A stretch of DNA of 49,738 bases from Methanosarcina sp. (GTDB taxonomy: Archaea > Halobacteriota > Methanosarcinia > Methanosarcinales > Methanosarcinaceae). Location of the stretch: assembly GCF_028693135.1 (NCBI RefSeq), contig NZ_JAQUVZ010000023.1:1-49738 (forward strand). Reading direction: 5' to 3'. Each line of letters starts with the position of its first letter. Positions within the stretch are counted from its first letter, which is position 1. A model generated the notes under the pieces. It searched no databases. It had not been told where the DNA came from and saw only the letters and a program-made list of their open reading frames with translations. This document shows positions 1-45,710 of the stretch, piece by piece. The position numbers and the translations under genes were made by a program.

Positions 1-67
1 TGAAGGGAGACTTTCACGTACGGTTCTTAGGAGAGAAGGGGGGAGTAATCCCCTTGACTTATCCGAC
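1..67 (+). mobile_element. 3' end of a group II intron (domains V and VI)
   Basis: The first bases carry the 3' half of a domain V hairpin: a stem closed by a GAGA (GNRA) tetraloop at about 7-10, followed by ACGTACGGTTC, the conserved distal strand of domain V. A G/C-rich hairpin at about 37-57 (GGGG, then GAGTAAT, then CCCC) fits domain VI with its branch-point A. The exact 3' splice site is uncertain; it lies at about 57-67, and I take the AC at 66-67. The intron body and any reverse transcriptase lie outside the window. Confidence 0.8.
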
Positions 68-18306: not shown

Positions 18307-18422
18307 TTGTCCACAAAAAGGTGCCTGGAGGGAATTGCATTGATTTTGAAGTTTGCAGTGTTTCATTTTTAGGAACTACATCAATCCGGGCATCGTTTAA
18401 ACAGTCGGGTATCTGGCCAAAC

Positions 18423-18488
18423 ATGGAAGATAGCGAGAAACTTATGGAAACGGTTGTGAAAGGTTTGTTAGACGGAGCTGCCGCCTGA
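18423..18488 (+). pseudogene. hsdS 3'-end relic 3
   Basis: The last 21 codons of the lost hsdS, MEDSEKLMETVVKGLLDGAA plus A and stop. Nearly identical to relics 1 and 2 from the EDSEKL block on, while everything upstream is unrelated. It begins 117 nt after the DUF1828-like gene. Confidence 0.7.
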
Positions 18489-18529
18489 AAAAATAAAAAT
18501 AAAGTTATGGATGTTCCAAAAAACCAGAA

Positions 18530-18626
18530 AACCATATTCACTATCTTGAACCTGTCTTTTCACCGAGCGAAGCTCGGGCCAGTCCGAAAAAGTACAAAAA
18601 GAAGAACGAAATGATTTTTTCACACA
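18530..18626 (+). repeat. Post-hsdS hairpin segment, copy 2
   Basis: Second copy of 16994-17092, with CCATATTCACTATCTTGAAC and the hairpin CCGAGC-GAA-GCTCGG (18563-18577). It follows hsdS relic 3 at the same distance as copy 1 follows relic 1. Confidence 0.75.
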
Positions 18627-18639
18627 CGGTTTACACACG

Positions 18640-18990
18640 GAAGCCAGTCAACTCCCCGTCACTAAATTGGCAGGCATGTAATAGTGCCCCGGTTGACCAG
18701 CCTGAGTCTTAATTGACTACGTTGGAAATTTCATGATACCTGCGAATGCTTCCTCAGTTTGTAGCTCTATCGTGTAGCATTAAAAGTCCTGAGAGATAGG
18801 GGCGGTGTGTTACACATAACAAGCATATCCAACATTGGCGAGGGGAGATACGAAAGTACGTTACCTGCGGAGGAAATTCGTTTCCAAAACAGAGTGGAGA
18901 AATCCAAACATGAAAGGAATACCAGAAAATTGACGGCATTCATCTCATGACTAAAGTCAAAAGCATCCTGCATTATTTTTTCGGGAATTT
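18640..18990. other. Unassigned sequence with nested inverted repeat
   Basis: TCAAC..CACTA at about 18658-18674 is answered by TAGTG..GTTGA at about 18681-18695, a nested inverted repeat with CCCCG on both arms. It resembles ends seen in IS200/IS605-type elements, but no transposase is present. The rest shows no gene. Confidence 0.3.
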
Positions 18991-19029
18991 GCTTTTTATT
19001 AAAAACGGTACATTGACACCTTAAAACTC

Positions 19030-19135
19030 ATTTTTTTCTTTTCTGATATTACGGGAAAGCCGCACTTCGTGCGTGGCAAGCTCCGTAAAAGACACCAATG
19101 ATGTTGTTCCGGCTCCTGTCCCACAACCAGAATTG
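19030..19135 (+). repeat. hsdS leader segment, decayed copy 3
   Basis: Carries GGGAAAGCCGCACTTCGTGC, GGCAAGCTCCGTAAAAGACA and TCCCACAACCAGAA, so it is a third copy of the hsdS leader. It is followed by a 12-bp minisatellite instead of a gene. CACCTTAAAACTCATTTTTT just before it repeats 17133-17151. Confidence 0.7.
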
Positions 19136-19176
19136 AAAAGAGAATTGAAAAGAGAATTGAAAAGAGAATTGAAAAG
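19129..19176 (+). repeat. Tandem repeat, 12 bp x 4
   Basis: Four exact copies of AGAATTGAAAAG, beginning within the end of the third leader copy. No coding role is seen. Confidence 0.85.
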
Positions 19177-19412
19177 ACATCTGTAATATGGGGATTGGGC
19201 ATCTGGATGTTGGGGAGTTGGGGGGTATGGGGGGTTATTAAAAAGAGTTAAAAACAAGTCTTTAATGACCTTTCCAGATGCCCAGTATCTCAATTGCTTT
19301 AATGATATATATAATTAAAGATTCGTCTTTTATTCATGAAGTCTGATAATGGCAACTGTGTATTATTTGCGGGCAGACGTTTTAAACTAAAAATAGAACC
19401 AAAGTTGTTCTC

Positions 19413-19478
19413 AGTCCTCTTGAGCGCAGCGAAAAGGACCGCGCACTCCCTAGGCACAATTCGGGCGGGCCAGAATTC
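19413..19478 (-). repeat. Dispersed intergenic repeat, partial copy 3
   Basis: Contains GTCCTCTTGAGCGCAGCGAA, AAGGACCGCGCACTCC and CACAATTCGGG. It marks the right edge of the relic region, directly before the end of the antiporter gene. Confidence 0.7.
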
Positions 19479-19489
19479 AGGGTGGTCAC

Positions 19490-43372: not shown

Positions 43373-43594
43373 TTAGAGAAACTCAAGGCACAGGCATACG
43401 TAATATTCTCTTGCAACCCTTTTAAGCCAGTCCGGAACCAGGCAATACCTATCAACAATAAGCTCGTTCAGGTAGTAGAGGGACTCTTCGGTTTTGAACT
43501 CACTGAGCCTCTTTACAGCCGTCCTTCTCTTCCACGCAGAATTCTCTTCGTCAAGAGCTTCAAGATAAAGCTGGTATTCTTTGCTATCATTCAT
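43373..43594 (-). CDS. Hypothetical protein, HEAT-repeat-like (73 aa)
   Basis: A small charged helical protein. WKRRTAVKRLSEFKTEESLYYLNELIVD reads like one HEAT-type helical pair, and WLKRVAREY follows. ATG 43594 is chosen: a TATA-like TTATATTC on the minus strand is centred about 27 nt upstream, implying a leaderless mRNA, and there is no ribosome site. A TTG at 43615 would add seven residues. Function unknown; it could be a fragment of a longer HEAT-repeat protein. Confidence 0.5.
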   Translation of the reverse strand: MNDSKEYQLYLEALDEENSAWKRRTAVKRLSEFKTEESLYYLNELIVDRYCLVPDWLKRVAREYYVCLCLEFL

Positions 43595-43795
43595 TAAAGT
43601 AAAATTATCTATCAAAGAATATAACTATTTGTATCCGGTGTCAGAAGCAGCGATATCCGGAAGGTTTTAAAGAGGCATTTCAGAGACTGTAGTTATATAT
43701 TTCGACGGACATGACAATTTTTGGAATTTCGATAAAGTACTCGGACAATAAACTTTAAGAACTCCTGGTAAATCAAAAAACATATATCTCAAAAG

Positions 43796-43879
43796 AAAAT
43801 AAAAGGGAATTCCCTTTATGCAGTGATCAGTTGCAGGAATCCCCCCACTCAAATGTTCGCTCTGTGCTACAAGGTAGCA
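43796..43879 (-). ncRNA. Candidate small RNA A
   Basis: Read on the minus strand from 43879: a 5' hairpin TGCTAC-CTT-GTAGCA, then AGCGAACA, a stem GGGATTCC pairing with GGAATTCCC around the loop GCAACTGATCACTGCAT, and AAAGGG-AATT-CCCTTT followed by a T-rich end. A TATA box (TATATTTA, 43900-43907) is centred 25 nt before the first base of the 5' hairpin. Homologous to candidate B. Confidence 0.5.
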
Positions 43880-44075
43880 TATAACATACAATGCCCGCAT
43901 AAATATAGTTTTCGAAATTCTCCTGAAAAACTGAAAGTTACGAAAATGTTTTTTGACCTCTTCTAAGAACCCCCAAAGTAAGGGAGCAAAGAAGGAGAAA
44001 AGGTGCAAAGAAGAAAAGACATATCGACATATGTAAACGACATATGTAAAAAAGTGCTTTCAGGCTGAAGAGGGT

Positions 44076-44162
44076 AAAAATAGGAAAGGAGAATTCCCAT
44101 GCAATGATCAGTTGCTGAGAATTCCTGCACAAGGTTTTTTGTTCGCTATGCCTTACGAAGCA
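44076..44162 (-). ncRNA. Candidate small RNA B
   Basis: Homologue of candidate A in the same orientation 283 bp away. From 44162: 5' hairpin TGCTT-CGTA-AGGCA with different bases but the same fold, TAGCGAACA, then GGAATTC and GGGAATTCTCC arms around GCAACTGATCATTGCAT, and a pyrimidine end (CCTTTCCTATTTTT). The TATA box TTATATAT (44184-44192) is centred 26 nt before the 5' end, the same spacing as in A. Confidence 0.5.
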
Positions 44163-44512
44163 AGTAATAATTCTTCAAAAAAGATATATAATTACCGGCA
44201 TTGAAATTTCAACACAGGCGACATATTAGCTCACATTGAAATGTTTAATGACAACTATAATTTTAAGAGCATCACTAATTATTTTCCCCTCATAAATTAT
44301 TTGGAATGAAATGATGAAAAGCCGGAAAAAATTACTATTTTAATAGAGCTCATTACCTTAATAGAATACACATATTCAAGTATTTATACGCTTATTTATC
44401 TATACTTCTTATTTTACTAAGTTTTGCATTTTTTAAGTTTTATTTCCTGCAGGGTATATTCCCATTTAACTGTACAAACCAAATCTCCAGAAAAATCAAA
44501 TCTTCCGTATTT

Positions 44513-45682
44513 TCACCTTGTGCTTATTGCTTTTACAGGGTCCAGCTTCGCAGCCTGTCGCGCAGGATAAATTCCGGTAATCAGGTTCAGAAGGAAAACG
44601 GCGGCAATAATTAACACGATGTCCTGAGCGCGGACAACAATCGGGATAAAGGAAATACCCCCGTAGACATCTGAAGAAGCTGCCGGGATTTCATACCCAC
44701 CTATTGCCAGGGCTATAAGAACTCCTGCAAAAGTACCGACAAGGGCGCCCAGCAGGCCGAGAATCCCGCTCTGGAGAATGAAGATCCTCTGGATGCTTGA
44801 GACCGGGGCACCCATGGCGCGGAGCATGCCTATCTGGCCTGTTGCGCCGATAACCGAAAGGTTCAGGGTACTGACCACGCCAAAAGAGGCTATGACAATA
44901 ATAAGACCATATACAACCTTGTTTGAAGTGCCCTCGATAGCAATGGTACGGAGAATCGCAGGGTTTGTCTCGGTCCAACCTTTTGCCTTATAACCGGTTT
45001 TCTCTATCTCGGTTGCGATTTCCCGGTCCGTATTAAAATCCCTGAGCCGGACTGAAATGCCATTAACCACATCCGGGACATCATAGAATTGCTGGGCAGT
45101 ATCCAGGGAGGTGTAGGTCAGGGACTCGTCTAGAGGGGAGCCCGTATGAAAGATCCCCACAATTCTAAGAGAAAGAGGATTTGCGTTCGGAAAAGATACA
45201 TCTATGGAGTCCCCCAAATTAACTTCAAGTTTATCTGCCAGCTTTGAGCCGATAACCACCGTATTTCTTGAAAACTCGAGTTCCCGGAAACTGCCTTCAA
45301 CAATATCTTCTTCAATAGCGCTGATTTCATTTTCCTGTAAAGGAACCACACCTTTAAGCTCGGCATTGAGGGAATTGCCCTTGAACCTGAAAGAAGCCTG
45401 TCCCGTAAGGAAAGGAGAAAACGCAGTAACTCCTTCGATTGAACTGATCCTCTTCATGAGAGTCCCGTAGAGGTAGATGTAATCTTCACCTTCCTGCGGA
45501 TAGACCGAAACTTGAGGAAGTTTGTTTACGGTAGTGTTGTAAAGCTCCCCTGTAAAACCCACCATAAGAGCCTGGGAAACCGTAAGTACCATCACAGCAA
45601 GGGCTATTGCACCTACCGAAAGGAGAGTCTGGAATTTTCTTGCCCGGATTTGCCTGAGGGCAATAAAAAGTTCATAACGCAT
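44513..45682 (-). CDS. FtsX/LolE-type ABC transporter permease
   Basis: A 389-residue permease with the FtsX layout: N-terminal helix after RYELFIALRQIRARKFQTLL, a ~210-residue outer domain and three C-terminal helices (about 255-280, 305-330 and 355-380). The cytoplasmic segment TGQIGMLRAMGAPVSSIQRI and the end GIYPARQAAKLDPVKAI are family hallmarks. ATG 45682 is used; GTG 45691 is possible. It lies downstream of the PGF-CTERM-like protein in the same direction. No ATP-binding gene follows within the gap, so its ATPase must be encoded elsewhere. Confidence 0.88.
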   Translation of the reverse strand: MRYELFIALRQIRARKFQTLLSVGAIALAVMVLTVSQALMVGFTGELYNTTVNKLPQVSVYPQEGEDYIYLYGTLMKRISSIEGVTAFSPFLTGQASFRFKGNSLNAELKGVVPLQENEISAIEEDIVEGSFRELEFSRNTVVIGSKLADKLEVNLGDSIDVSFPNANPLSLRIVGIFHTGSPLDESLTYTSLDTAQQFYDVPDVVNGISVRLRDFNTDREIATEIEKTGYKAKGWTETNPAILRTIAIEGTSNKVVYGLIIVIASFGVVSTLNLSVIGATGQIGMLRAMGAPVSSIQRIFILQSGILGLLGALVGTFAGVLIALAIGGYEIPAASSDVYGGISFIPIVVRAQDIVLIIAAVFLLNLITGIYPARQAAKLDPVKAISTR

Positions 45683-45710
45683 GGGACTCACAGTTTTTTT
45701 GAGTTTTATT

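Follow-up and report, generated by a model that had tools for sequence, protein, structure and literature searches.

Two tandem and homologous candidate small RNA genes conserved in Methanosarcina and a sister genus

Does the DNA between a permease gene and a small open reading frame of Methanosarcina sp. hold two related small RNA genes and, if so, how might their products act? In this work we have used comparative and structural analyses to decipher this locus, which lies in a stretch of 49,738 nucleotides (contig NZ_JAQUVZ010000023.1), hereafter the window. Two blocks are found on the minus strand, A at ~44163-44076 and B at ~43879-43796, at the positions given in the original prediction. 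Their features and those of their surroundings, all on the minus strand, are as follows.

44513..45691, minus: upstream MacB/FtsX-type ABC permease, a conserved neighbour (Pfam MacB_PCD, FtsX)
44234..44250, minus: distal upstream element of A, CATTAAACATTTCAATG, conserved ~95 nt before AGCGAACA and retained in second-locus copies
44201..44212, minus: palindromic upstream element of A, TTGAAATTTCAA (TT.AAAtTT in the alignment), present at second-locus copies too
44184..44191, minus: TTATATAT, the TATA box of A, which does not vary across the genus-wide alignment (AATTATATATc as consensus)
~44165-44161, minus: predicted start of A, from the sequence
44076..44163, minus: small RNA A, predicted transcript of ~88 nt, from its own TATA box, conserved island and fold; start uncertain by a few nt
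44140..44150, minus: A motif CATAGCGAACA, with AGCGAAC invariant in 33 A copies
44089..44125, minus: A main hairpin, 97% of cells paired, compensatory changes across A and B
44111-44105, minus: A loop CTGATCA (CUGAUCA, 7 nt), predicted unpaired in most copies
44076..44080, minus: 3' U-run of A, terminator-like; a T-tract is kept after the hairpin and conservation then drops to background
43899..43920, minus: putative B promoter GAATTTCGAAAACTATATTTA, BRE/TATA-like, with AGAATTTCGGAAACTATA conserved among B copies including those of the sister genus g5
43907-43899, minus: TATA of B, from the sequence
~43880-43876, minus: predicted start of B, from the sequence
43796..43879, minus: small RNA B, predicted transcript of ~84-88 nt, with copies in six genomes and in a further four of g5
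43865..43879, minus: B 5' hairpin (TGCTACCTTGTAGCA), from the fold; outer pair A-U changed to G-C in three of nine copies
43854..43861, minus: B motif AGCGAACA, common to A; GCGAAC retained in seven of nine B copies
43803..43846, minus: B main hairpin, from the fold and covariation with A
43830-43824, minus: B loop CTGATCA (CUGAUCA), within the main hairpin
43804-43791, minus: T-run of B, from the sequence
43373..43594, minus: downstream 73-aa ORF, a conserved neighbour by synteny, no Pfam match, outside the small RNAs

Both AGCGAACA and GCAACTGATCAYTGCAT are common to A and B and lie in the same orientation, as had been claimed, and single-sequence folds of the two blocks agree with the long shared stem around the loop and the T-rich end that had been described for them. 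The joint pattern AGCGAACA-N10-40-CAACTGATCAYTGCAT has no matches but A and B in the 4.22-Mb genome, in which its reversed control had none at all, and the named records carrying it are all from Methanosarcina. At the level of the taxonomic family, 31 of 112 genomes gave homologues in a DNA search, and almost all of these belong to Methanosarcina or g5; within the class, the RNA occurs in 31 of 238 genomes, which fall in two of the 39 genera, and the E-values reach 1e-18. In a covariance-model search, the check that the original prediction had proposed, a model built from 33 A copies (R1) matched A in 27 of the 31 Methanosarcina and all four g5 genomes, and had no match in other genera among 186 genomes of the order and 238 of the class. 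The A orthologue lies at C1:4007173-4007291 (minus strand) in G075 and at C1:1506747-1506863 (plus strand) in G083. The four Methanosarcina genomes in which A is missing include one that is 99% complete, so that not every member of the genus needs it.

A second model, built from nine B copies (R2), finds B in six genomes (G000, G081, G082, G083, G095 and G097) and in the four of g5. In most genomes it picks up A too, at E-values of about 1e-6 to 1e-2 (3e-5 for the A of the window genome), and R1 in turn matches the B copies of g5 and G097 (E=1e-4 to 5e-3 per genome) and, in a smaller search, the window's B at E=7e-4. Since the two models match each other's copies, A and B are homologous; judged by these sequence models they belong to one RNA family, with a similarity above chance. 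In g5 and in some of the Methanosarcina genomes the A-B tandem is followed by the same small ORF, from which we infer that the duplication predates the split between Methanosarcina and g5.

Is the RNA fold itself under selection? The folding energies of A and B are unremarkable against shuffles (z of -1.5 and -1.7), so that the case for small RNAs could not be made from folding by itself. In A, 97.2% of the main-hairpin cells are paired in the named structure; taken alone, its stem pairs barely vary, and the two pairs changed on both sides are not clearly above shuffles. When A, B and diverged copies are combined, compensatory changes appear at seven of the 13 main-hairpin pairs, with 26 compensatory cells against 10.9 in shuffles and none of 1000 shuffles as high, in an alignment that was hand-adjusted at the bulge and at an extra AAA of some B copies and that leans towards the structure. 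Little adjustment was needed for the clearest compensations, which are at L7 (U-A to C-G) and at L1 and L2 (both A-U to G-C). The structure-fitted alignment A3 was left out, as opposite-strand matches were mixed into it. The 5' hairpins fared differently: compensation between TGCTT/AGGCA and TGCTAC/GTAGCA, as originally proposed, does not hold, because the hairpin of A is not conserved and is missing in 11 of 33 copies; that of B is better supported, with weak compensation at its outer pair. Among the loops (consensus CYGAYCA) we find CUGAUCA, CUGACCA, CCGAUCA, UUGAUCA, UUGGCCG (in G097) and, in one B copy, CUGAUCU. The AGCGAAC segment has on average a partial probability of being unpaired in single-sequence folds (0.2-0.7), and the AGCGAACAAA unit of A occurs in one to three repeats, varying by species.

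Promoters and boundaries were read from an alignment of 35 loci over 480 nt. In it A forms a conserved island of ~170 nt with sharp edges, made up in order of CATTaaAcatTTcaA, TT.AAAtTT, AATTATATATc, CATAGCGAAC, the hairpin and the T-run; information is ~1.2-1.7 bits/column over the island (~1.1-1.7 within the RNA) and ~0.5 bits/column directly past the T-run. The conservation of both promoter and RNA is thereby established computationally. The B promoter, with its conserved AGAATTTCGGAAACTATA, differs in sequence from that of A, and the matched promoters of the original prediction therefore hold in kind, as a TATA at a similar distance, and not in sequence. Two conserved elements upstream of A (44201-44250 of the window, minus strand) each bear ATTTCAATG, one of them being the palindrome TTGAAATTTCAA; they are probable binding sites for a transcription factor.

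The order permease, A, B and 73-aa ORF is stable and on one strand, as would be expected if A and/or B were a 5' leader (riboswitch or attenuator) of the 73-aa ORF, or an element of the permease 3' UTR. We consider this quite improbable, however, since the ORF has a conserved TATA-like box of its own ~40 nt before its ATG and A has its own conserved promoter. Furthermore, barkeri-like genomes carry a second-locus copy of A, upstream elements included, whose neighbours are a PocR/PAS histidine-kinase gene or a gene for a PKD-domain secreted protein. There, promoter and RNA are present and the usual neighbours absent, some copies converging on the kinase gene, which indicates that the A unit can do without the operon. 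G099, too, has unrelated DNA downstream of A. Because these second-locus copies and G099 show the RNA unit to be independent of the 73-aa ORF, an action in trans is preferred.

In several lineages A has been retained while B has decayed. Remnants of B are seen downstream of A (loci L020, L016 and L021): G075 has a degenerate, still recognisable B, G085 has B reduced to its 3' half and adjoining A, and G101 has a B-like promoter left without the RNA, all three cases having been read by eye. Strongly diverged copies of A, altered in the loop and inner stem, are present in G086 (L115, 4001-4104, minus strand) and G094 (L117, 3047-3151, plus strand), with the loops CCGAUCA and CCGACCA; G086 also has a normal A elsewhere. 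A further A-like copy in G096 (L118, 514-622, plus strand) keeps hairpin and loop and has no recognisable AGCGAACA.

The existence of second-locus copies, and a hairpin palindromic enough to give weak opposite-strand matches, could also suggest a selfish or repetitive DNA element and no regulator at all. We give this reading almost no credence: there are one to three copies per genome, the orthologous position is held genus-wide, the promoter is conserved and the strand is fixed. A search of viral contigs found neither A nor B. Nor do we believe, except with very low probability, that A and B are small mRNAs for a tiny peptide or have a dual function like sRNA154 of M. mazei, in which a 20-aa leaderless ORF has been reported (PMC11456600). 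The sole ORF near the predicted A start in the window, TTG CTT CGT AAG GCA TAG, ends after five codons, the species differ by frame-breaking indels both in the spacer and on the flank of the stem, and changes in the stem track base pairing. The spacer of A varies in length by single bases and there is a one-base indel at the foot of the stem (GTGCAGGAATTC vs GTGCAGAATTC), which, together with the variable AGCGAACAAA repeats, makes conserved translation across A unlikely.

Wide conservation, covariation, two-way model matches and conserved promoters strongly bear out, at the sequence level, the tandem homologous small RNA genes that had been predicted, and it is very probable that A and B are genuine small RNAs with a regulatory role. 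The reading that we favour, and consider reasonably probable, is that of a family restricted to the Methanosarcina lineage, independently transcribed, non-coding and anciently duplicated, whose members would regulate mRNAs in trans by base pairing. Each would be transcribed from its own TATA promoter, with the conserved upstream elements setting the expression of A, and each RNA would consist of the AGCGAACA segment, then a long hairpin exposing the 7-nt CYGAYCA loop, then a U-run. The loop may contact the mRNAs, perhaps with AGCGAACA as a second site, and the stem would serve for stability and as a terminator-like 3' end; transcription, trans action and the identity of the binding segments are what we infer. 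Across 31 genomes, searches with sequences complementary to the conserved segments, 15 nt or 12 nt in length, hit almost nothing but the small RNA genes themselves. As no long complementary site is conserved in these genomes, any pairing would be short.

This same lack of a conserved complementary mRNA site in the 31 genomes would also fit a protein-binding decoy or scaffold, CsrB-like, in which a protein bound to AGCGAACAAA and/or CYGAYCA is titrated or guided. The invariance of AGCGAAC in A and the one to three AGCGAACAAA repeats, different between species, point in the same direction. However, the extra repeats are often degenerate (L017, L021 and L030) with the first one intact, so that copy number is not selected, and we know of no archaeal partner protein recognising a motif of the AGCGAACAAA type. 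We regard the decoy as a possible but doubtful explanation. An action on one fixed partner, RNA or RNA-binding protein, and not on many mRNAs appears unlikely to us. Nearly all loop changes, CUGAUCU in one B copy being the exception, are transitions that would still pair, via G-U, with a constant 5'-UGGUCRG-3'; as a weak argument, this would agree with a partner that stays the same and is recognised by means of G-U pairs. Transfer RNAs were set aside as this partner, as there is no UGGUCRG among the 14 tRNAs in 400 kb of G103.

Two further uses of the loop were considered and rejected. Kissing of A with A or with B through the UGAUCA palindrome would be lost in g5, where the A loop is CUGACCA, and between A and B in G097. 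Mimicry of the anti-Shine-Dalgarno sequence (GAUCAC, a sequence present at the 3' end of 16S) is speculative, and the altered loops of g5 and G097 no longer match it.

Why would pairing regulators of this kind matter? Functional studies cover very few small RNAs of archaea, and most of these are from M. mazei and haloarchaea. A and B would be among the easier ones to test: they are short, have a defined conserved loop and belong to a methanogen genus that is genetically tractable and in which most species carry the family. Natural variants are ready for comparison (B lost or decaying, A at a second locus, the loop changed in g5 and G097), and the family would merit an Rfam entry.

The window holds other RNAs as well. 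A full-length HEARO (omega-RNA-like) RNA lies at 18647-18851 on the plus strand (135.6 bits); there is no ORF of at least 120 aa within 18307-19489, so that it is an orphan with no adjoining HNH/IscB-type gene. At the edge of the contig, positions 1-67 (plus strand) belong to the 3' end of a group II intron whose 5' side is cut off.

How do A and B compare with known RNAs? The original prediction knew no named family that fitted, and our Rfam 15 search of 43700-44350 agrees, with no match at the gathering score nor at E up to 1. Archaeal C/D box small RNAs are likewise short and contain CUGA, and in g5 the A sequence reads CUGA-CCAC-UGAUGA around the loop. In alignment A1, however, there is neither a box C (RUGAUGA) near the 5' end nor a box D (CUGA) near the 3' end, and a C/D box or K-loop RNA was rejected, being suggestive in g5 only, beyond which UGAUGA is not conserved.

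The closest parallels are found among the intergenic small RNAs of M. mazei, of which sRNA154, sRNA162 and sRNA41 have been reported to pair with their targets, in many cases by way of loops (PMC5867862, PMC3510493). Like A and B, sRNA154 is intergenic, conserved in Methanosarcina and built of two stem-loops, and its loops are functional (PMC5867862). In contrast to A and B, it is ~130 nt long, has the NrpR operator GGTA-N6-TACC in its promoter and lies in the MM3337/MM3338 gap (PMC3177094), and it carries a 20-aa ORF at nt 4-66 (PMC11456600) that A and B, of ~85-90 nt, lack. The A promoter reads GGTA-N6-TATC instead of the NrpR sequence, with GTTA for GGTA in most barkeri-like copies, and an NrpR-type site is absent upstream of B; the sRNA154 primer sequence gave three matches, with two mismatches. 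Similarly, sRNA162 and sRNA171 are duplicated intergenic genes with conserved stem-loops that were copied together with their promoters, their locus having one copy in M. acetivorans and M. barkeri (PMC3510493). They differ from A and B in being 191 nt long, with three stem-loops, beside the ArsR regulator gene MM2441 and MM2442 (PMC3510493), whereas A has ~88 nt and is flanked by the ABC permease and the 73-aa ORF. Length, neighbours, promoter or ORF thus rule out identity with sRNA154 or with sRNA162/171 (PMC3177094, PMC3510493, PMC11456600). In being intergenic and regulatory, sRNA41 of M. mazei, which targets ribosome-binding sites, resembles what we propose for A and B (PMC5867862). A 2009 survey of M. 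mazei gave ~200 intergenic candidates, about a fifth of them conserved in three Methanosarcina species (PMC5867862), and A may well already be among its unnamed members. We see in A and B further candidates for the known kind of archaeal intergenic small RNA, set apart from sRNA154 and sRNA162/171 by the published descriptions of these RNAs.
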